Source: Alphaproteobacteria bacterium (GTDB lineage Bacteria > Pseudomonadota > Alphaproteobacteria > SHVR01). From it: a stretch of 64,000 bases of DNA. The stretch spans positions 1 to 64,000 of the forward strand of contig SHVR01000001.1 of the NCBI GenBank assembly GCA_009694185.1, in the 5' to 3' direction. Shown here in pieces: positions 15,276 through 43,316 of this stretch. The notes under the pieces are model-generated. The model had not been told where the DNA came from. It did not search any database and saw only the letters and a list, made by a program, of their open reading frames with translations. The translations under genes and the position numbers were made by a program. Numbering within the stretch: position 1 is the stretch's first letter; every line of letters starts with the position of its first letter.

Positions 15276-16493
15276 ATGAAAGAGCCCCATGGCCCCTTGC
15301 AGGGCGTGAAGGTGGTTGCCTGCTCCACAGCGCAAGCGGGAACCGTGCCCTACATGCTGATGGCCGATCTCGGCGCCGAGGTCATTAAGATCGAAGTGCC
15401 GGAAGGCGGCGACAATTCGCGCGGCTCCACCGTGCTGCCGGGCTTTCCCAGCACCTATTTCGAGACCAACAATCGTGGCGTCAAGAGTGTGACCCTCAAC
15501 CTCAAGGCGCCGGAAGGGCGGGACATCCTCCGGCAGCTCGTGCGGGAGGCCGACATCTTCGGCCAGAACTTCCGCCCGGGCGCGGCCGAGAAGAACGGCT
15601 TCGGCTATGAGGACCTCCGCAAGGTCAATCCGAAGCTGGTCTATGTGTCGATCTCGGGTTACGGCCCCAAGGGACCGCACGCCGATCTGCCGGGCACGGA
15701 TTCCATGGCCCAGGCGCTGGGTGGCATCGCCGAGGCGTTTTCCAGCCCGGGCCAGCCGATGCGCACCGGCATCGTCTCGGTCGCCGACGAAACCTGCGCC
15801 ATCCTGGCGTTTGGCGGGGCACTCGCGGCACTCACCCACGCGCGCGCCACGGGCGTCGGCCAGAAGGTCGATTGCTCGCTGCTCGGCGGGCAGCTCCGGC
15901 TGATGGGTTGGACGCTCACCACCGCCATGTGGCGAGACCGCAACCCGGTCACCGGCCAGGCGCGGGTCACCGGCACGGCCGAGCGGCCCGGATTGAGTGC
16001 GAGCTTCAACGACCGCGACGGCAAGCCGCTCGTCTTCCAGCTCGATGGCGTCAGGAAGTGGCAGACCGCCATGACCGCGCTTGGTTTCTACGAGACCCTG
16101 GAGACGGCCGGCTTCGGCAGTCTCGGGGTCATGCACGAGAGCGAGGAAAAGCGCGCGGGCTTGCTCGGCTTGCTCGACAAATTGTTCGCCACCGGTCCGC
16201 GCGAAGTCTGGGTCGAGAAGCTCCGTGCCGCCGACGTGGTCGCGGCGCCGATCAACACGCTCCTTGAGGCCGCCAACGATCCCGACGTGCTGGCCAACGG
16301 CTATGTGACCGAGATGGAGTATCCCAAGCACTCCAAGCGCCTCAAAGTGCACGGCACGCCTTGGCACTTCTCCGAGACGCCGGCCCAGATCGGCATCGCT
16401 CCCGAACTCGGCGCCGACAATGATTCCGTGCTTGCCAGGCTGGGTTACGGCGCCGATCGGATCCGCGACTTGAAAGCGCGCAAGATCATTTGA
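15276..16493 (+). CDS. CaiB/BaiF family CoA-transferase
   Basis: 'MLMADLGAEVIKIEVPEGGDNSRG', 'NNRGVKSVTLNLKAPEGRDILRQLV', 'GYGPKGPHADLPGTDSMAQALGG'. Confidence 0.92.
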   Translation: MKEPHGPLQGVKVVACSTAQAGTVPYMLMADLGAEVIKIEVPEGGDNSRGSTVLPGFPSTYFETNNRGVKSVTLNLKAPEGRDILRQLVREADIFGQNFRPGAAEKNGFGYEDLRKVNPKLVYVSISGYGPKGPHADLPGTDSMAQALGGIAEAFSSPGQPMRTGIVSVADETCAILAFGGALAALTHARATGVGQKVDCSLLGGQLRLMGWTLTTAMWRDRNPVTGQARVTGTAERPGLSASFNDRDGKPLVFQLDGVRKWQTAMTALGFYETLETAGFGSLGVMHESEEKRAGLLGLLDKLFATGPREVWVEKLRAADVVAAPINTLLEAANDPDVLANGYVTEMEYPKHSKRLKVHGTPWHFSETPAQIGIAPELGADNDSVLARLGYGADRIRDLKARKII

Positions 16494-17412: not shown

Positions 17413-18105
17413 GTGCATCGTTGGACCAAGAAGATTCTCCTATTCAATCCCAACACCACCCGGGCGATGACCGATCGCATGGTTGCCGTGGCGGCGAAAG
17501 TGGCGGATCAAGCGACCGAGTTGATCCCGCTAACGGCATCCCATGGGGTCACCTACATCGCGAATCATGCCGATCTTGCGCGCGCGAGCGAGGTTGTCCT
17601 CGAAACTCTCCCCCTGCACCAAGCGGGCATCGACGCCACGGTGATCGCCGCCTTTGGCGACCCGGGCCTGATTGCCGCGCGCGGACGGTTCAAGCGGCCG
17701 GTCGTGGGCATGGCGGAGGCGGCGATGCTGACCGCCTGCATGCTGGGCAAACGGTTTTCGATCATCAGCTTCACGCCGGCATATGTTGCCATGTTCGGCG
17801 ATCTGGTGGCGCTCTATCGCCTTGACGGCCGGTTTGCGGGGGTGCGGGTTCCGGACGTGGGCTTCTCGTCGGTCGTCAACGTCCAGGACGAGCTGGAGGA
17901 TGTCCTCGTCGCCTTGGCGCTCAAAGCCGTGCAAGACGATGGCGCCGATGTGATCATTCCGGGCGGGGCACCCCTGGCGGGATTGTCAACGCGCATCGCC
18001 GGCCGGGTGCCGGTGCCGATCGTCGACCCGATCTCGGCGGCGGTGTGCCAGGCGGAGACGCTGGTTCGCCTGCGCGGAAGCGATCGTCGCGGCGAGGTCG
18101 CTTGA
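17413..18105 (+). CDS. Asp/Glu/hydantoin racemase family
   Basis: 'KKILLFNPNTTRAMTDRMV', 'AAFGDPGLIAARGRFKRPVVGMAEAAML', 'DVIIPGGAPLAG'. GTG start at 17413 inferred. Confidence 0.88.
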   Translation: MHRWTKKILLFNPNTTRAMTDRMVAVAAKVADQATELIPLTASHGVTYIANHADLARASEVVLETLPLHQAGIDATVIAAFGDPGLIAARGRFKRPVVGMAEAAMLTACMLGKRFSIISFTPAYVAMFGDLVALYRLDGRFAGVRVPDVGFSSVVNVQDELEDVLVALALKAVQDDGADVIIPGGAPLAGLSTRIAGRVPVPIVDPISAAVCQAETLVRLRGSDRRGEVA

Positions 18106-18151
18106 CCTTGTCCCGCGAGCCAGTGGACGATACCGCCCGGTAGGAGGGTAC

Positions 18152-20241
18152 ATGCGCCTGCGAATCTCCGTCGATACCGGTGGAACCTTCACCGATGTCG
18201 TCCTGCTGGACGAACAGGGACGCATGACCATCGGCAAGGCGCTGACCACGCCGAACCGCATCTTCGACGGCATGGCCGGCGCGCTCGCCGTGGTGGCGGA
18301 AGAGCGCGGCCAGTCGGTTCGCGACCTCTTGGCCGGCACCGATATTCTGATCTACGGCACCACCCGCGCCATGAACGCCGTGGTGACCAAGCAGACGGCC
18401 AAGACCGCCTTTGTGACCACCCGTGGCTTCCGCGACACGCTGACGCTCAAGGAAGGCGGCAAGCACGGCCCGAATGATTATTCCTACGACTATCCCGACC
18501 CCTATATCCCCGCCGCTACAGCTTCGAGATCGACGAGCGCATCGGCGCCGAGGGTGAAATTGTCGAACCGCTCAATCTAGCCACGGCACGCGCGGTGATG
18601 ACCCCGCTCAAGGCCCGAGGCTTCCAGGCGGTAGCGGTGAGCCTGTTATGGTCGATCGCCAATCCGGTGCATGAGCTCGCCATCGGCGCCATGCTGGAGG
18701 AGACGTTGCCTGGCGTCCCCTTCACGCTTTCGCATCAGCTTGTGCCGATCCTGCGCGAATACCGCCGCGCCTCGGCGACGGCCATCGACGCGTCGCTGAA
18801 GCCCCTGATGCAGCGGCACTTGCAGGAGATGTCGGCGGATCTGCGCGCCGCCGGCTTCGCTGGCGATCTCTTGATCAGCACCTCGATCGGCGGTTGCCAG
18901 GCGGTGGAAGAGCTGATCCAGCGGCCGATCCATTCCCTCAAGTCCGGTCCCGTGATGGCGCCGGTGGCGGGGCGCGCCTACGCGGCGATCGAGGGCCTGG
19001 GCGGTAATGCCATCGTCTGCGATACCGGCGGCACCACGTTCGATGTCGGCCTCGTCCGCGATGGCAGCCTGGTCTATACCCGCGACTCCTGGCTCGGGGC
19101 TCGGTGGCTCGGCGACATTATCGGCACCTCGACCGTCGACGTCCGCTCGATCGGTGCCGGCGGCGGCTCGATCGCGCGGATCGACGCGGGCGGCTTGCTC
19201 AGGGTCGGCCCGCAATCCGCGGCATCGGTCCCCGGACCCGCCTGCTACGGACTGGGCGGCGACGAGCCGACCGTGAGCGACGCCGCCCTCTATCTCGGAT
19301 ATCTCGATCCCGCCTATTTCAACGGTGGCCGCCTCACGCTCGACCCCGCGCGGGCGGCACGGGTCATCACCCGCCTCGCCGCCCACCTCGGCCTTCCGCC
19401 GGACGAGACCGCCGCCGCCGTCATGACCATCGCCAATGAATTAATGATCAAGGCGATCGGCGAGATCACGGTCAATGAGGGCCTGAACCCGCGCGAGAGC
19501 GTTATCGTCGCGGGCGGTGGTGCCGCCGGCTTGAACATCATGCCCATCGCGCGCGAGCTCGGCTGCGATACGGTCGTGCTACCGCGGCACGCGGCGGCGC
19601 TCTCCGCCTGCGGCATGCAATATAGCGACATCATCTTCGAGGCGACGCGCTGCCGCTTCACCGACAGCGTCAATTTCGACGTGGAGGGCGTCAACCGCGC
19701 GCTCAACGAGATCACGGCGGAACTCGCCGCCTTCCGGGCTGGCTTGCGGGGCGTGGAGGGCGTCGAAGCCCGTATCGAGCTGCTGGTCGAGGCCCGTTAC
19801 CGCGCCCAGGTCTGGGAGCTCGACACACCGCTTCCCAAGCGGCGTATCGAGGACGCCGGCGACGTTCGGGCTTTGGCCGAAGCCTTCCATCGGGCGCATG
19901 AGCGGGTCTATGCCGCGCGCGACGAGGGGAGCCCCGTCGAGTTCGTCAACTGGCATGGCCGCATTGCGATCCGCGCCTTCCAGCCGCCGCCAGTGTCCGA
20001 TCGGGGTGTCGAGTGGTACCGGCCGGAGCCCGACCAAAGCCGCATTTGCTTCTTCAACGAGACCGGCCGCTGGGCGACGCCAATCTATCGCGGCGCGGCG
20101 CTCATGCCGGGAGCCAGGATCGCCGGGCCCGCCATCGTCGAGGAGCCGACGACCACGATCGTCGTCTATCCGGGCCTGTGGTCGGAGCTGTCGGCCGCCG
20201 GCAACTACGTCCTGCATTGTGCCGGAGAGATGACCCCATGA
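18152..20241 (+). pseudogene. Hydantoinase/oxoprolinase subunit A (HyuA-like), split by a single-base frameshift
   Basis: ORF 18152-18580 (MRLRISVDTGGTFTDVVLLD) and ORF 18595-20241 are one HyuA; inserting one C at about 18506-18510 restores DPYIPRRYSFEIDERIGAEGEIVEPLN. Confidence 0.88.
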
Positions 20242-35633: not shown

Positions 35634-38600
35634 CTAAACGTCCAGCGCGCAGTTCGATCGCGGCATCGCCACACAGGCCAGGATGTAGCCGGCCGCCTTG
35701 TCTTCCGGCGTCAGCCCGTGTTCGGTCCGCATGCCGACATTGCCGGAGACGAGCTTCACCTTGCAGTCGCCACAGTGGCCCACCCGACAGCCATAGCCGA
35801 TATCGACATCGTTATCCTCGGCGACTTCGAGTAGCGTCGTCTTGCCGTCGGTTGTTGCCGTCTTGCCGGCGCCCACGAATTCGATGGCGAGCGTACCGGT
35901 TGCCGCGTGTACGTCCTCACCGACCGGCGCGCCGCCGCTGGCGATGGGCGCCGCCTTCTCGTCCACCGAGGTGCGCAGGCCGCCGAAGCTCTCGGTGTGA
36001 AAATTGGCGAGGTCGAAATCCAGTTCCGCCAGGATCCCTCGCACCGCATTCATGAAGCCCTCGGGGCCGCACATGTAGATATGTCTGTCGTGCAGGTCGG
36101 ACGAGATCATTTCCAGCATGGGCCGGTTGATGCGGCCCGTCAGGCCGCTCCAGTCACCGGTACGGCCGCGGGTTTCGGCGAGCAGCACCGTGGAAAACAT
36201 CTTGTAGCGCGCCGTCATGTACTCGAGTTCCTTGCGGAAGATGATGTCGTCGGGCGAACGCACCGAATTGAACAACTGGACATCGACGTCGGCGGCCACG
36301 TCGCAGAGCCACCGCGCCATCGACATCACCGGCGTGACGCCGCTGCCGGCGCCGAGGAACAGAAGCTTCTGCGGGATTTTGCCGGGGATCAGCGAGAACT
36401 TGCCCTTGGGGCCGGCCGCCTCAATGCGATCGCCGATGTGCAAATTGTCGGCGAGCCAGTTGGAGACGAGCCCGCCCGGCACCCGCTTGACCGTAATCTC
36501 GAGGACATAGGGCCGCGTTGGCGTCGAGGAGATGGTGTAAGAGCGGACCACCTTCTTGCCGTCGATGTTGAGCACGAGGCTGCAATATTGTCCCGGCCAA
36601 TAGACGAACCGGCAGAGCGGATCGCCTTGGAAGCGGAACGTATAGACGTCGTGGGTCTCGGCGATGATCTCGTTGACGTAAAGGGGCGTGTCCTGGCCGT
36701 TCCAGATCGGCAGGTCCATTTTGGGATCGATGATCGTGGTGTCCAGCCGGATTCCGGCCCCCCGGCGTCCCGGCGCCACCGCGGGCGCCGTGACATGGAG
36801 CGGAACCCGCTCGAGCACGACCAGGTTCGCCTTGACCGCGGTCTGCGAGCAGTAGGCGCAGCGCTCCTCGCTCGAGGTCACGTCGTTGATGTAGCGGCCT
36901 TCCTCCATCTGGCCGCGCGACTTGTGAAAGCTCACATAGATGCTTTCGCCCTTGACGCGGTCCGTGACGATCACGGGCAGCTCGATGGCGGCACCCGTCT
37001 TGCGACCGGTCACGCGGACCTTATCGCCTTGCTTGAGCCCAAGCTTGTGGGCGAGCGCCGACGAGATATGGCAGGGGTTCTCGTCCGGCATGCCGATGAT
37101 CGGCGTTGCCTTGCCGGAATTGAACGTGCTCATCGCGAACTGAATGCGCTTGCGATCCGAGGTCAGCGACGATCGTCCCGAGTTCATGATGATGCCATGC
37201 GGGATGTGCATGTCGGCTTCGGTCGGCCGGAAGAATTTGAACGGGCGCGGTTGGCGATAGATGTCGGCAAACGGCTGGTGGTCGGGTGTCGCGTAGTCGA
37301 GCATGTAGCGGTTCCGGCCGACGCCGCCATAGACGATGGAGCCCTGCTCCACGAGCTCCCGCCAGGCGATCGGCCGGCCATCGGCATGTTCGGGGCGACA
37401 ATAGAGCGGGCCCGAGCCACCCGCCATATACGCCTGGATCCGCCGCCAAAGCTCGACCCGGTCGACCTCGCCGCCGATCCGGCCGAGGCCGCCACCCTCA
37501 TTGCGATCCTGGAAGCGTGCTTGCAGATAGCCGGACTCGATGTGGCGAGCGAGATCGGGGTGGGCCAGGCGCAGGTCGGCACTAAGACCCAGCTTCCGGG
37601 CAATCTCGGCCATGACGTCGTAGAGAATCGTCGCGTCGCTGCGCGTTTCCTCGGGCGCCTTCTTGGCCGGAACCGAGAGGGACAGCTTCCATTCGCCATT
37701 CTGGTAGAGCTTGGTGGTGGCGGGATGGGGCGGCGAGGGGATGATGAGATCGGCATGCGCCAGCGTGTAGGGGTCAGGGATTGGATCGACCACCACCATC
37801 CGCGACCCGGACTCTTCGAGCTTTGCGATCCAGCGCCGCCGATCCATCATGTTGGCTTCGAATTGGGTTCCGAAGAACACGAACAATTCCGGCTTGTCGT
37901 CGGTGGATTCCGCGTAGTCGAGCGCCGCCCTGGGTGGGTCGGCGGCAACCGCCTGATAGGCGTCGTCGGGCAGGCCCATGCGCCGGGCGGCTTCGCCCGC
38001 CTCGTCGATCGGGATACGGCCCATGAAGTATTTGCGCGAGAGGCCTTGCACCTCGGTTTGGGCGTTGATCTGGCCGGGCACGCGCAGGGTGCCGCCGGCG
38101 GGCGTGCCATCGGCCTTCAGCCCGTACTTGCCAAGGAGCGCCAGCACCGATCCCCACAGGCAATGGGCGACAACGCCGCTCGTCTGCGACAGGCCGACCG
38201 AGGGGATGTTGATCGGCACGTTGCCGCGCTGGGCGAACTTATGGGCGATCAGGCGGATACCGCGCTCGATGCGGACCGCATAGTCGGGTTCGGGTGCGAT
38301 GCGCTCGGCCACATGGCGTGCTTCGAAACGCGGGGCCAGAGCCAGGTCGTAGAAGCGTTCGTAGGAATCCGGGTCGGCGAAGCGCTCGATAAAACGGTCC
38401 TCGACGGCGCGGCGGTGCGCGATCAGGAGTTCGTGCGCGATGGCCAGTGCCAGATGCGGGTCGGCGCGTGGCCGGATCAGCAATACCCGCTCCGGCCCCA
38501 GCCGCTTGGCGAGCTCGACCGCGGTCTCCGTCACGGCCACCTCGACCAGGAACGCATCGAAGTCCTCGCGCTTGGCAATCGCGCGATACACCGGCGGGTG

Positions 38601-39494
38601 GGTCACGAAACCATTCCAGCCGTTGAACAGGAAGACTCTGTTCGGGCCGTTCACGCTGTCGTCGATGGTGAGAAACGGTCCTTCCTGGCCGGTCAGGATC
38701 TCGTTATGGACGGCACCGGCATTGAGGCAGTGCTCGGCATTGCCGGTGAGATTGCGCACACCGAGCAGCCGGAACACCTCCTGGATCGCGAATATCGCGA
38801 AATAGTCGATTTGCCCGCAGGCATAGAGCAGCGCGCGGCCCACGTCGCCGCGGTGGGCCAGCAGGAGGTCGGCGAAGCGCGTGATCGCCGCCTCGTAGGT
38901 GATCGTCCGGCGCGTCCCGGTGCCGCGGTCGAGCACGCTCGGTGCCACATGGATCGGGTAAGCCGGGCGCTGCGCCATCTGGGAAAGTTTCAACTTGACG
39001 CAGCCCAGGGTCGGCACCGTCGCATTGAGCGCGCGCTCGTTAAGAGTGACCACGCCGGCATAAGGCATGAAAAATTGGCTCCGAAGCGCCCCCTCGGCCG
39101 TGTTCCGGCCAATTTCGCGGGCGGTGACGGTCAAGCGCCGCCCGTCGACCTCGATCTCGCCATTCAGGATAGCCGCGTGAGGTGCCAACTCGGTGGCGGT
39201 GAAGACTTCGATCCGGCCATCGGCGTGTACGAGGGCCTTCAATTCTTGCTGGCTTCCACCGGTCGTGACGTGGAGCACGCCGCTCCCGGCATTGGGTGCC
39301 GCTTGCTCCGACTGTATCGTCGCCTGGGGCGCCGCAAGGAAGCCGCTGTCGCCGACGCCGCAGAAGCTGCAGGAATAGGGTGTGCCCTGGTCCGGCGACG
39401 TGTCGGCCGCCGGCAACACATAGCCGGGTATGCCGCTCGCATCCGCAAGCTCTCCGGCATGGTCGATGGTGGGAAGCGCATCGTCGCTACTCAT
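35634..39494 (-). CDS. Tripartite fusion: molybdopterin oxidoreductase (assimilatory nitrate reductase-like) + FAD/NAD(P) ferredoxin-reductase module + plant-type [2Fe-2S] ferredoxin
   Basis: 1286 aa. MopB body with 'GNAEHCLNAGAV' (candidate Mo-Cys) and 'INDVTSSEERCAYCSQTAVKANLV'; FNR-like 'RSYTISSTPTRPYVLEITVKRVPGGLVSNWL' and 'LGAGSGVTPVMSMARWL'; C-terminal 'CRVGHCGDCKVKL...CVAMP' Fe-S motif. Confidence 0.88.
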   Translation of the reverse strand: MSSDDALPTIDHAGELADASGIPGYVLPAADTSPDQGTPYSCSFCGVGDSGFLAAPQATIQSEQAAPNAGSGVLHVTTGGSQQELKALVHADGRIEVFTATELAPHAAILNGEIEVDGRRLTVTAREIGRNTAEGALRSQFFMPYAGVVTLNERALNATVPTLGCVKLKLSQMAQRPAYPIHVAPSVLDRGTGTRRTITYEAAITRFADLLLAHRGDVGRALLYACGQIDYFAIFAIQEVFRLLGVRNLTGNAEHCLNAGAVHNEILTGQEGPFLTIDDSVNGPNRVFLFNGWNGFVTHPPVYRAIAKREDFDAFLVEVAVTETAVELAKRLGPERVLLIRPRADPHLALAIAHELLIAHRRAVEDRFIERFADPDSYERFYDLALAPRFEARHVAERIAPEPDYAVRIERGIRLIAHKFAQRGNVPINIPSVGLSQTSGVVAHCLWGSVLALLGKYGLKADGTPAGGTLRVPGQINAQTEVQGLSRKYFMGRIPIDEAGEAARRMGLPDDAYQAVAADPPRAALDYAESTDDKPELFVFFGTQFEANMMDRRRWIAKLEESGSRMVVVDPIPDPYTLAHADLIIPSPPHPATTKLYQNGEWKLSLSVPAKKAPEETRSDATILYDVMAEIARKLGLSADLRLAHPDLARHIESGYLQARFQDRNEGGGLGRIGGEVDRVELWRRIQAYMAGGSGPLYCRPEHADGRPIAWRELVEQGSIVYGGVGRNRYMLDYATPDHQPFADIYRQPRPFKFFRPTEADMHIPHGIIMNSGRSSLTSDRKRIQFAMSTFNSGKATPIIGMPDENPCHISSALAHKLGLKQGDKVRVTGRKTGAAIELPVIVTDRVKGESIYVSFHKSRGQMEEGRYINDVTSSEERCAYCSQTAVKANLVVLERVPLHVTAPAVAPGRRGAGIRLDTTIIDPKMDLPIWNGQDTPLYVNEIIAETHDVYTFRFQGDPLCRFVYWPGQYCSLVLNIDGKKVVRSYTISSTPTRPYVLEITVKRVPGGLVSNWLADNLHIGDRIEAAGPKGKFSLIPGKIPQKLLFLGAGSGVTPVMSMARWLCDVAADVDVQLFNSVRSPDDIIFRKELEYMTARYKMFSTVLLAETRGRTGDWSGLTGRINRPMLEMISSDLHDRHIYMCGPEGFMNAVRGILAELDFDLANFHTESFGGLRTSVDEKAAPIASGGAPVGEDVHAATGTLAIEFVGAGKTATTDGKTTLLEVAEDNDVDIGYGCRVGHCGDCKVKLVSGNVGMRTEHGLTPEDKAAGYILACVAMPRSNCALDV

Positions 39495-39497
39495 GGC

Positions 39498-42314
39498 TTA
39501 CCCTTTTGGCCCGTGCTCCGGATGACCGGTTTGCCGTTCGTTGCCGGCATCTTCGGCCGCCGGATCGGGAACGATTCGCGGAATTTCGAGGCTGACTGCC
39601 GTGCCTATGCCGACTTTCGATTCGATGGCGACCTTACCATGCAGCAAACCGGTCACGATGTTGCGAACGATCGCGAGACCAAGCCCCGTGCCGCCCTTGG
39701 CACGGCCGGTGGTGAAGAACGGTTCCCACACCCGGGCGAGGTCCGCCGCGGGAATGCCCCGCCCATGGTCGCGCACACGGATACGGAAAGCCGTGCTGCC
39801 CAAATTCTCCAGCTCGATCTCGATCTTGCCCCCGCCCTCCGGGTAGGCGTAGCGCTCGGCATTGCCGATGAGGTTCAAGAGGATTTGGGAATAGGGTCCC
39901 GGATAACCCCGCCAGTCCGTGTCGCCGTCGATGCGGTTGATCACCGACAGTTCGAGCTTGGCGGCGCGCGCCTTGACCGCGTAGAGGCCGATCACTTCTT
40001 CCGTCAGCATCACCAGATCGACCGTCTCCTTGGCCTCGTTTGCCTGGTGCGCCGCCAGGTTCTTGAATGACTTAATCAGGCGGTCGGCGCGCTCGATGTT
40101 GCTCTGAACGAGCTGGGCCGCCTCCGCGACATCGCCGAGATCGCGCGCGGCGTTGTCATCCTTGGCAAGGGCGATGATGCCGGCGGGCGTTAGCTGCTCG
40201 GTGATGATGCTGGCGGCGTGGTTCGCAACCCCTATCGGCGTGTTGATCTCATGCGCCACGCCAGCCACCATCTGCGTCACCATGCGGTGGCGTTCGATTT
40301 CGCCTTCCGTCCGCATGCGTTCCTGCTCGGCGTGCAACCGTTCCTGCTTGAGCATGCTTTCGAAATACTCGCTATTGGTCTGGCGGATCTTGCCGCTCAT
40401 TCCGACCATGATGTCGCCGAGGATGCGCGGCGAGGTCGACAGCAAGCGCATGAAGTCGTCACGGCCAATGACGAAAAGACTGCCGCCATCGACGGCGGTC
40501 GCGGTGGCCGAGCGGGGTTCGCCGTCGATCAGCGCCAGCTCGCCGAACACCGAGCCTGCCGGCATGACGGCCAATTCGATATCGCGGTTCTCCGCATCGA
40601 TGAGCCCAAGGCGAATCCGTCCCTTCAAGACGACATAGAGCGCATCGCCCGGATCGCCCGCGTGGAACAGGATCTGGCCTGGTATGGCGGCCTCGACGTG
40701 GCCGCTGGATGCCAGCGTCGTCAGCGCGCCCAGCGAGAGGTCGCCAAAGAGGGGCACATGCCTTAGAATGCCCTCGATCGTGCTTTCATCGGGGACTTCG
40801 GCGGTAGCCGGTAGCTGGGTGCGTGGCCGGAATTCGACCAGCCGGGAGAGCTCCGGCGCTTCGCTCGCGAGGATGCGGGCGACCACGCGCTGCATCCAGA
40901 TAAGGCAGCCGATCGAGAGCAAGGCGAGCAGCAGCCAGCAGGTTGCCCAGATGCCCGTCAACACCAGCAAGAAACCAAACAGCGGCGGCAGCACGAACCC
41001 GCCGAGCGCGCCCAGGAGGCCGATCATGCCGCCGACGGTTCCCACATTGCCGGGGAAATAGTCGGGGATGAACTTGTACACGGCGGCCTTGCCGATGCCG
41101 GTTGCAACACCGAACACCAGCACGAAGAAGGCGAACACCCATAGATTGGCGGGATAGTAGATATTGGTGACGCCCTTGGCGAGAAGCTGTCCCTTGGCAA
41201 CGGTATCGGCCGGCTTGACGACGGGCTCGTGCCACTGGTTAACCCTCGGCAGCAACATCGAGCCGGTGTCCATCGACCCCGGCGTCCGGTCGATCGGCGG
41301 CGTCAAGGCAAAACTTCGGTCGCCGACCGCGATCCGCTCCGGGCCGACGACGGTGACGGTGCCCGGACCCGCCGCCATGATGCCGGCGCCGGGCGAGGTC
41401 AGCTCCATCCGCGGCACGGCAAGGAAGGCGCAACTGATCGCGCAGCTCATGAATACCCAGTACATCACCTGGCGCGCGCCATAGCGATCGGAGAGCCAAC
41501 CGCCAGCGGCACGGATGACGCCCGAGGGCAGGCTGAAGAGGGAGGCGAGCAGGCCTGCCTGCACGATCGACGTCTGGTAGACGTTGACGCTATAGGGGAT
41601 CAGCCATTGGGCGATCGCCACGAACGCGCCGAACACCAGGAAGTAATAGAGACCGAACCGCCACACCCGAAGGTGATAGAGGGGTGCCAGACGGTCCTTG
41701 AGGGTTTGGGTTCGCGCCTCGGCCGCCCTGCGCTCGCGGGTCGAGAGATAGAAGGCAAACGCGGTAACCACCAGGAGGGAAGCGTAGATCTTCGGTAGCT
41801 GGCGCCACGCGTCGGGGTCGTCGCCCGAACCCGTGAGCGCGATCAGGAGGGTCGGCGCAATCATTGTGGTCAAGCCGGCGCCGGCATTGCCCATGCCGAA
41901 GATGCCGAGCGCCGTTCCTTGGTTCTCCTTGGCGAACCATGCCGAGACATAGCCGACACCGCAGGCAAACCCGCCACCGGCCAGGCCGAAGCCAAGACTC
42001 GCCAACATAAAGCCGCCGAAATCATCGGCCTCGGACAAAAGGTAGAGGGGCAATGCCGCGGCCAGCATGACGAGAAAGAAGACCAAGCGGCCACCGTAAC
42101 GGTCGGCGAGGAGACCGAACGGTACGCGGCTCAACGATCCGGTCAGGATCGGTGCCGCCAGCAGCCATCCGACCTCGGCGGCGGAAAAGGGGATGGTGCG
42201 CGTACCGACCAGATAGGTAACCAGAACCCCGTTGATCACCCAGCACGCAAAGCAGACCGTGAAAGCCAGCGTGCTGGCGACGAGGGCCGTGAATGCTTGG
42301 CCGCGCTCGTTCAT
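39498..42314 (-). CDS. Fusion: NNP-family nitrate/nitrite porter (NarK-like MFS) + cyclic-nucleotide-binding domain + histidine kinase
   Basis: MFS part with 'GKAAVYKFIPDYFPGNVGTVGG' typical of NarK; cNMP domain 'GQILFHAGDPGDALYVVLKGRIRLGL...GSVFGELALIDGEPRSATATA'; kinase H-box 'MVAGVAHEINTPIG', N-box 'LLNLIGNAERYA', G-boxes 'DHGRGIPAADLARVWEPFFTTGRAKGGTGLGLAIVRNIV'. ORF extends to 42365. Confidence 0.92.
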   Translation of the reverse strand: MNERGQAFTALVASTLAFTVCFACWVINGVLVTYLVGTRTIPFSAAEVGWLLAAPILTGSLSRVPFGLLADRYGGRLVFFLVMLAAALPLYLLSEADDFGGFMLASLGFGLAGGGFACGVGYVSAWFAKENQGTALGIFGMGNAGAGLTTMIAPTLLIALTGSGDDPDAWRQLPKIYASLLVVTAFAFYLSTRERRAAEARTQTLKDRLAPLYHLRVWRFGLYYFLVFGAFVAIAQWLIPYSVNVYQTSIVQAGLLASLFSLPSGVIRAAGGWLSDRYGARQVMYWVFMSCAISCAFLAVPRMELTSPGAGIMAAGPGTVTVVGPERIAVGDRSFALTPPIDRTPGSMDTGSMLLPRVNQWHEPVVKPADTVAKGQLLAKGVTNIYYPANLWVFAFFVLVFGVATGIGKAAVYKFIPDYFPGNVGTVGGMIGLLGALGGFVLPPLFGFLLVLTGIWATCWLLLALLSIGCLIWMQRVVARILASEAPELSRLVEFRPRTQLPATAEVPDESTIEGILRHVPLFGDLSLGALTTLASSGHVEAAIPGQILFHAGDPGDALYVVLKGRIRLGLIDAENRDIELAVMPAGSVFGELALIDGEPRSATATAVDGGSLFVIGRDDFMRLLSTSPRILGDIMVGMSGKIRQTNSEYFESMLKQERLHAEQERMRTEGEIERHRMVTQMVAGVAHEINTPIGVANHAASIITEQLTPAGIIALAKDDNAARDLGDVAEAAQLVQSNIERADRLIKSFKNLAAHQANEAKETVDLVMLTEEVIGLYAVKARAAKLELSVINRIDGDTDWRGYPGPYSQILLNLIGNAERYAYPEGGGKIEIELENLGSTAFRIRVRDHGRGIPAADLARVWEPFFTTGRAKGGTGLGLAIVRNIVTGLLHGKVAIESKVGIGTAVSLEIPRIVPDPAAEDAGNERQTGHPEHGPKG

Positions 42315-42380
42315 GCGGGCCAACCCGTCATCGGTGATCGCTGTTGCCGCATTCCTCGCCCCCACCCCACCGTGCGAAGC

Positions 42381-43316
42381 TCAAATCGCGATCGAGTCGA
42401 CCATTTCTCCGGCGCCGGCCAGCACTTTCTCGGCCACCGCCGAGTAGAGCGCGTTGCCGGCATGGCCGGCGAGCAGCGTGAGGGCCGTTCGGGCGAGATC
42501 GTCGGCTTCGGCGTCCGCGAGAAACAGCCAGCCCGAACCGAGCTCCCGGTGCACTTTCAGCGGAATAAGGACGCCGCCGGAATGGGCTTGTGGCCGGCTC
42601 GCCGAGCGCGCCCTCGGATCGCGGTCGATCCGCGCGCGGATCTCTTCCGCCAAGGCAGATGCCCCGGCGCCCGTCGCGCCGCTTGCCAGATGCGAGAAAT
42701 AGCGCCGCGGCCCGCCGTCATGCTCCACCGTGTCGAGCGCTAGGACCCCCAGCGATGTCGGGCAAATCTCGATCGCGGCCTCGAGGATCCGTGCCAAGGT
42801 CGAGGCCAGCGGATCGTAGGAATGCAGCGCCAAGGCGCGTTCGTGGATGATTCCCAAATACCGGCGATAACGTTCGAGCTCGACCAGTTCCATCCATGAC
42901 TTCAGCGCGGCGCGGACCGCGGAATATAACCGGTTCGAGGTGAGTTCGGCCTTCGGCAGGTAACCATCGATGTCATAATTGTCGATGGTTTGCCTTTCCG
43001 GGGCTTGGCCCGGCTGGCCGGTGCGCAGCATGATCCGCGCCGTCGGGTTGGCGAGCTCCGTGCGGATGGCGCGGCAGGCATCGAGCCCGGCGGAGTCCGT
43101 CTCCATCACGACGTCGAGCAGGATCACCGCGATCCCCGGATCGCCGCGCATGATGTCCACCGCTTCCTTGCCCGAATGTGCCGACAGCAGCTCCACCTCG
43201 CGTTCCCGGAATTTGAGGCCGCGCAAGCTCAGGCGTGTGACGCTATGGACATCCGGCTCATCGTCGACAATGAGAATCCGAAGCTTTTTCGGCTGCTCGC
43301 CGACCGCCAATGCCAT
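42381..43316 (-). CDS. Response regulator: receiver + DUF3369-like domain
   Basis: 'LRILIVDDEPDVHSVTRLSLRGLKFREREVELLSAHSGKEAVDIM...VILLDVVMETDSAGLDACRAIR'; C-terminal region 'YRRYLGIIHERALALHSYDPLASTLARILEAAIEICPTSLG' DUF3369/GAF-like; no HTH seen. Confidence 0.85.
   Translation of the reverse strand: MALAVGEQPKKLRILIVDDEPDVHSVTRLSLRGLKFREREVELLSAHSGKEAVDIMRGDPGIAVILLDVVMETDSAGLDACRAIRTELANPTARIMLRTGQPGQAPERQTIDNYDIDGYLPKAELTSNRLYSAVRAALKSWMELVELERYRRYLGIIHERALALHSYDPLASTLARILEAAIEICPTSLGVLALDTVEHDGGPRRYFSHLASGATGAGASALAEEIRARIDRDPRARSASRPQAHSGGVLIPLKVHRELGSGWLFLADAEADDLARTALTLLAGHAGNALYSAVAEKVLAGAGEMVDSIAI

Follow-up and report, generated by a model that had tools for sequence, protein, structure and literature searches.

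Genes at the locus

A minus-strand gene at positions 35634-39494 of the window, the 64,000-nucleotide stretch analysed here from a 77%-complete metagenome-assembled genome (MAG), starts with ATG and remains open for 1286 codons. The single polypeptide consists of a molybdopterin oxidoreductase (MopB) part at residues 1-896 (36807-39494), followed by a GbcB/Hcr-like FNR-type FAD/NAD module at residues 938-1175 (35970-36683) and a plant-type [2Fe-2S] ferredoxin at residues 1204-1286 (35637-35885), which also matched ferredoxins in the PDB. Pfam located Molydop_binding at residues 800-888 (38.8 bits, above the cutoff), FAD_binding_6 at 940-1033, NAD_binding_1 at 1046-1152 and Fer2 at 1212-1278, confirming the MopB body, FNR-type module and C-terminal ferredoxin that an earlier note had read from the sequence. 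The catalytic-domain model PF00384 stayed below its cutoff (11 bits against 24), and a genome-wide search with it listed two other proteins and missed the enzyme gene. The reductase motifs RSYTISS, GAGSGVTP, CGPEGFM and CX4CX2C...C follow the FAD-NAD-[2Fe-2S] order of the GbcB/Hcr type, and the module scored 332 bits against the NCBIfam GbcB model, under the cutoff of 500. No Tat-like signal is visible in the sequence of the N-terminus.

The MopB identity of the N-terminal part rests on a profile match to Desulfovibrio desulfuricans NapA (E = 1.1e-10), on the motif alignment and on an AlphaFold model, moderately confident (pLDDT 70.8) and low near the cofactor pockets, for which 2nap was the best of many MopB matches (E = 1.5e-24, TM 0.73 by target length). 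By its fold and its Molydop_binding domain, the enzyme is confirmed as a member of the MopB/DMSO reductase superfamily. The reading frame is likewise confirmed as genuine coding sequence under purifying selection, the dN/dS against the related locus L005 being about 0.18 (MopB part), 0.14 (FNR part) and 0.26 (ferredoxin). Its recurrence in nine other loci, at 58-75% identity to the window protein, together with this purifying selection shows that the fusion did not arise in assembly; the reductase module lies within the same ORF in ten loci and not in a separate gene, the outcome that the earlier note had named as refuting. A 1387-aa ORF on the plus strand (35907-40070) runs antisense to the enzyme gene. 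It was rejected as a real gene, for the same frame is broken in the relatives by 2-33 stops, so that it is probably a high-GC artefact.

The enzyme gene ends a tight operon of three minus-strand genes separated by gaps of 15 and 3 bp. The first gene (42381-43316, start set by homology) encodes a response regulator with a receiver domain and a C-terminal GAF-like domain, recognised by Pfam and by a fold search with its model. Its best fold matches are to a dual-sensor kinase that likewise carries receiver and GAF domains; an NreA-like nitrate-binding GAF domain was considered and rejected, as NreA was not among the 50 fold matches listed. The second gene (39498-42365) combines a NarK-type MFS transporter, a cNMP-binding domain and a histidine kinase, as found by Pfam. 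Its MFS part aligns with the NarU/NarK structures with both substrate arginines matched, and it scored 181 bits against TIGR00886, below the cutoff of 311.7; its product is possibly a nitrate transceptor. Like Ks-Amt5, in which an ammonium transporter and a histidine kinase form one protein, it joins a nutrient transporter to a kinase; unlike it, Ks-Amt5 carries an ammonium transporter, and no cNMP domain is reported in the available part of that source (PMC7438415). The accessible portion of a review of nitrate-sensing kinases (PMC8199190) makes no mention of NarK-fused kinases. A promoter and terminator scan at the operon gave counts near chance.

In the rest of the MAG no second strong NarK-type match is present (173 bits for the window copy, 32.5 for the next). 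Two other MopB proteins were found, which appear to be an FdsA-type formate dehydrogenase (FDH) and a different, sulfur-enzyme-like type, names that rest on sequence features and tree position and not on a family scan. At 77% completeness the MAG yielded no other nitrate reductase, no NIR_SIR protein and no NirK above cutoff, which extends to the available genome the earlier observation that nirBD-like genes are missing from the window. Of the 11 genomes with the enzyme gene, 7 encode NIR_SIR proteins, which could be sulfite or nitrite reductases.

Recurrence and gene neighbourhoods

Recurrence was scanned with short exact peptides in one genome per species across 85,462 species, a design that finds near relatives only. 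Among the 42 loci returned, most have only the reductase part in common, while the same MopB-FNR-ferredoxin fusion occurs in nine further loci (L005-L013, L012 being cut at its start) labelled with five phyla, and the MopB part alone in two (L014 and L015). The labels of the relatives are Alphaproteobacteria, Rhodospirillales, Thiomargarita and Parabeggiatoa (Pseudomonadota), Gemmatimonadota, Rhodothermota, Acidobacteriota and Myxococcota. The enzyme gene is rare in its class, where a profile search found it in 2 of 290 genomes, the second of which (G157) is apparently the L005 MAG; in a sample of the phylum, it was found in 1 of 399 genomes, the window's own. A tblastn search of plasmids with the MopB part gave no convincing relative. 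Neither the fusion, its FNR-ferredoxin version nor the MopB branch was found described in the open-licence literature searched, and the available part of the Thiomargarita genome paper does not mention the fusion.

Gene order is conserved around the fusion. A NarK-type gene, fused or separate, lies beside it in six of the seven loci with usable flanks (the window, L007, L008, L009, L010 and L011, not L013), the flanks of L005, L006 and L012 being too short for this count, and all of these neighbours score below the curated TIGR00886 cutoff. The receiver-GAF regulator is present in 6 of 6 loci where its position is readable. The NarK-cNMP-histidine-kinase fusion was also seen in L007 and L008, and in split form in L009. 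At L010, two kinase genes enclose a bacterial-like globin gene (15887-16312) on the downstream side of the MopB fusion, and the NarK-type gene is at 17861-19462. Around the MopB-only genes of L014 and L015 the surroundings are unrelated, with neither NarK-type nor regulator neighbours; a related aspartyl-protease-like gene directly follows the MopB-only gene in both (12420-15092 in L014, 12493-13719 in L015).

Cluster motifs and molybdenum site

Alignment of the enzyme family with NasA, NapA, FDH and other enzymes located the first iron-sulfur motif at C42-x2-C45-x3-D49 (39348-39371, minus strand), in which Asp49 takes the place of the usual third cysteine of the [4Fe-4S] cluster in each of the 11 members where this part of the sequence is present. 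The family thus departs from the four-cysteine motif C-x2-C-x3-C-xn-C of NasA, NapA and NarB, and the cluster would be either Cys3-Asp ligated or a 3Fe cluster, the latter being equally possible. Four YdeP-family proteins (L057, L076, L077 and L078) have Asp (three) or Lys (one) at the same position; since three of the four carry C-x2-C-x3-D, the substitution is not unique to the enzyme family. YdeP was considered as a parent family on account of this shared motif and rejected, with an hhalign score of 33 and a probability of 5%. Between the cluster motifs lies a beta-rich insertion of about 95 residues (about 55-150; 39045-39332), delimited by the alignment and the strands of the model, that is found in eight members and is absent from L008, L014 and L015; across the family the aligned residues between the motifs number 22-44 versus 111-123.

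The last cluster cysteine and the electron-relay lysine are kept in C165-x-K167 (38994-39002), as is the molybdenum-ligand cysteine, C256, within NAEHCL (38724-38741). C256 is followed by Leu257, where Nas and Nap have Met and FDH has His. Nas and Nap share GQPNAxGGREVG, in contrast to GQINAxxEVQ in the enzyme; the arginine of the motif does not occupy the same position. The marks of FDH, the His after the molybdenum-ligand Cys/Sec and the Arg of RGQNN, are absent as well, and Pro precedes GQ.

Placement of the MopB part

In a maximum-likelihood tree, built from small alignments in which long-branch effects are likely, the family forms a clade with 100/100 support, its stem measuring 3.91 substitutions per site, and sits on the Nas/Nap/FDH/Aio side (98/99) with no sister group resolved. 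Placement by this tree was given up, the clade being firm, its sister group not fixed and the long branch a risk. By hhalign the family scored 207 against Nas/Nap, 152 against FDH and 33 against YdeP, whereas Nas/Nap and FDH scored 945 against each other, far above either against the family. These scores put the family closer to Nas/Nap than to FDH and well away from either, and by profile, tree and motifs alike its MopB part is not an ordinary Nas, Nap or FDH. Phylogeny had been proposed earlier as a check on a nitrate-type assignment; it produced no firm placement in a non-nitrate clade, the MopB part being so divergent that in this tree it joined none of the NasA, NapA or FDH clades tested.

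Comparison with known systems

The nearest solved structure, D. desulfuricans NapA (2nap), shares the position of the Cys-ligated molybdenum and the C-x-K lysine. It differs in being periplasmic, in having no fused reductase, in its Cys4 cluster motif and in the Met after the molybdenum-ligand cysteine. One-piece electron transfer is known from eukaryotic nitrate reductase, in which a single polypeptide carries electrons from NAD(P)H to molybdenum. There, the molybdenum domain is of the sulfite oxidase family and cytochrome b5 serves as the relay, so that the molybdenum part is convergent and the likeness functional only, much as the earlier note had put it in speaking of analogy in logic and not homology. 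Among bacteria, too, one-piece nitrate reductases have a precedent: an annotated Acetobacter fusion of nitrate reductase and sulfite reductase flavoprotein (L064), encoded beside nirB, also joins MopB to a flavoprotein reductase. The Acetobacter flavoprotein is of the sulfite-reductase type and not FNR plus ferredoxin, and in the tree the MopB part of this fusion falls among canonical NarB-like enzymes.

The closest working precedent is the narK-bjgb-flp-nasC operon of Bradyrhizobium, in which Flp was proposed as the NAD(P)H electron donor to NasC and NarK exports nitrite (PMC4724949). It resembles the present system in a cytoplasmic MopB protein, in NAD(P)H electrons passing through a flavoprotein and in a NarK gene in the operon. 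L010, with its globin gene, NarK-type gene and fusion, adds a further likeness to this operon for nitrate assimilation and NO detoxification. Unlike the enzyme, however, the Bradyrhizobium donor is a separate protein and the Nas cluster motif is canonical Cys4, whereas the window MopB is far diverged from Nas and bears the ferredoxin at its own C-terminus.

Proposed mechanism and alternatives

Based on domains, motifs and recurrence, which support the architecture, a model is proposed in which NAD(P)H would reduce the FAD, the C-terminal [2Fe-2S] ferredoxin would relay the electrons to the N-terminal iron-sulfur cluster (Cys3-Asp ligated, or 3Fe), and from there they would move past the C-x-K lysine to the site of nitrate reduction, a Mo-bisMGD with a cysteine ligand. 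The first of these steps rest on conserved domains and the later ones on homology. The fusion in one polypeptide, its domains with their motifs, the placing of the molybdenum-ligand cysteine, the replacement of Cys by Asp and the conserved order of the genes can be read from the sequences, whereas we infer which cofactors are bound, the path and direction of the electrons, and the substrate. The passage of electrons from NAD(P)H to molybdenum within one polypeptide, as suggested earlier, is supported by the domain content, the kept motifs and the repeated occurrence of the fusion. In the upstream protein, the NarK part may admit or sense nitrate and may export nitrite, and its kinase together with the receiver-GAF protein may set expression or activity.

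The earlier note left the substrate open; what it overlooked were the strong divergence of the MopB domain and the upstream NarK-type transporter fused to a histidine kinase, through which the local context bears on the question. That neighbour and the affinity to Nas/Nap favour nitrate. The best reading, with an even chance of being right, is a molybdenum reductase that works in the cytoplasm with electrons from NAD(P)H and whose substrate, judged from context, is most likely nitrate (reduced to nitrite); it would then be a nitrate reductase of a new MopB subfamily. Nas/Nap as the nearest profile, NapA as the best structure match, the kept molybdenum-ligand cysteine and C-x-K lysine, the repeated NarK-type neighbours, the only strong NarK-type match of the MAG adjoining the gene, the apparently different types of the other two MopB proteins found there and the Bradyrhizobium precedent all speak for this reading. 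Against it stand Leu for Met after the molybdenum-ligand cysteine, the Arg of GQPNAxGGREVG that is not matched at the same position, a tree that does not group the family alongside nitrate reductases, L013 with no nearby NarK, the unrelated surroundings of L014 and L015, and a nitrite reductase that was not found in the 77%-complete MAG.

The same electron path could instead serve a different acceptor, be it an oxyanion other than nitrate (e.g. chlorate, selenate or iodate), an N-oxide or an organic compound, in which case NarK would transport some other anion or act only as a sensor; the Leu and the GQINAE motif, which fit neither Nas/Nap nor FDH, the long stem of 3.9 substitutions per site and the MopB-only relatives with no NarK link are consistent with this, but NarK-type neighbours in six of seven usable loci and the closeness to the Nas/Nap profile make it rather unlikely. 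Doubtful, though with a realistic chance, is a wider formulation in which the enzyme would be no variant of nitrate reductase but a distinct Mo-bisMGD class, with Cys3-Asp ligation at the proximal cluster, a beta domain inserted and an active site of a new kind, NAD(P)H-driven, linked to a transporter-kinase sensor and acting on another substrate.

A role chiefly as a redox or nitrate sensor reporting through the attached two-component system, and not as a bulk metabolic enzyme, would accord with the receiver-GAF protein and histidine kinase adjoining the fusion wherever flanks are readable, with the rare and patchy distribution and with the altered cluster motif. It is improbable, however, as the NAD(P)H supply, the molybdenum-ligand cysteine and the C-x-K lysine, needless in a pure sensor, are all kept, and two-component control of nitrate reductases is common. 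Least probable, and by a wide measure unlikely, is the reverse direction, that of a one-piece dehydrogenase of formate or another small molecule whose FNR module would reduce NAD+. NAD+-linked FDHs do pair MopB with a diaphorase, and FDH is the second-nearest profile; yet it scores below Nas/Nap, the His after the molybdenum ligand and the Arg before GQ, conserved among the FDHs aligned, are both missing, an apparent FdsA-type FDH is already in the genome, and the adjoining gene is of the NarK type and does not encode a formate channel.

The enzyme has a realistic chance of representing a distinct MopB class, with context leaning to nitrate as substrate. If nitrate is indeed reduced, a single gene would here encode an NAD(P)H nitrate reductase different from the known Nas, Nap and Nar. 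Surveys that rely on PF00384 would overlook the enzyme. It occurs in lake and seawater MAGs and in giant sulfur bacteria, settings where nitrate use matters. Being a single NAD(P)H-fed protein, it is directly assayable, and it provides a naturally occurring case for testing whether Asp can ligate the proximal cluster in a molybdoenzyme.

Related reductases

The reductase part shares its FAD-NAD-ferredoxin order with GbcB (glycine betaine monooxygenase reductase) and Hcr-type reductases, with about 40% identity in the best plasmid matches. Unlike the enzyme, which falls below the GbcB cutoff, these reductases are stand-alone and serve other partners. Two Methylococcales/Crenothrix reductases of 553-562 aa (L016 7103-8764 and L017 7410-9098) have an N-terminal extension of about 200 aa ahead of a GbcB-like module, and their genes are clustered with other FNR-type and globin-related genes.
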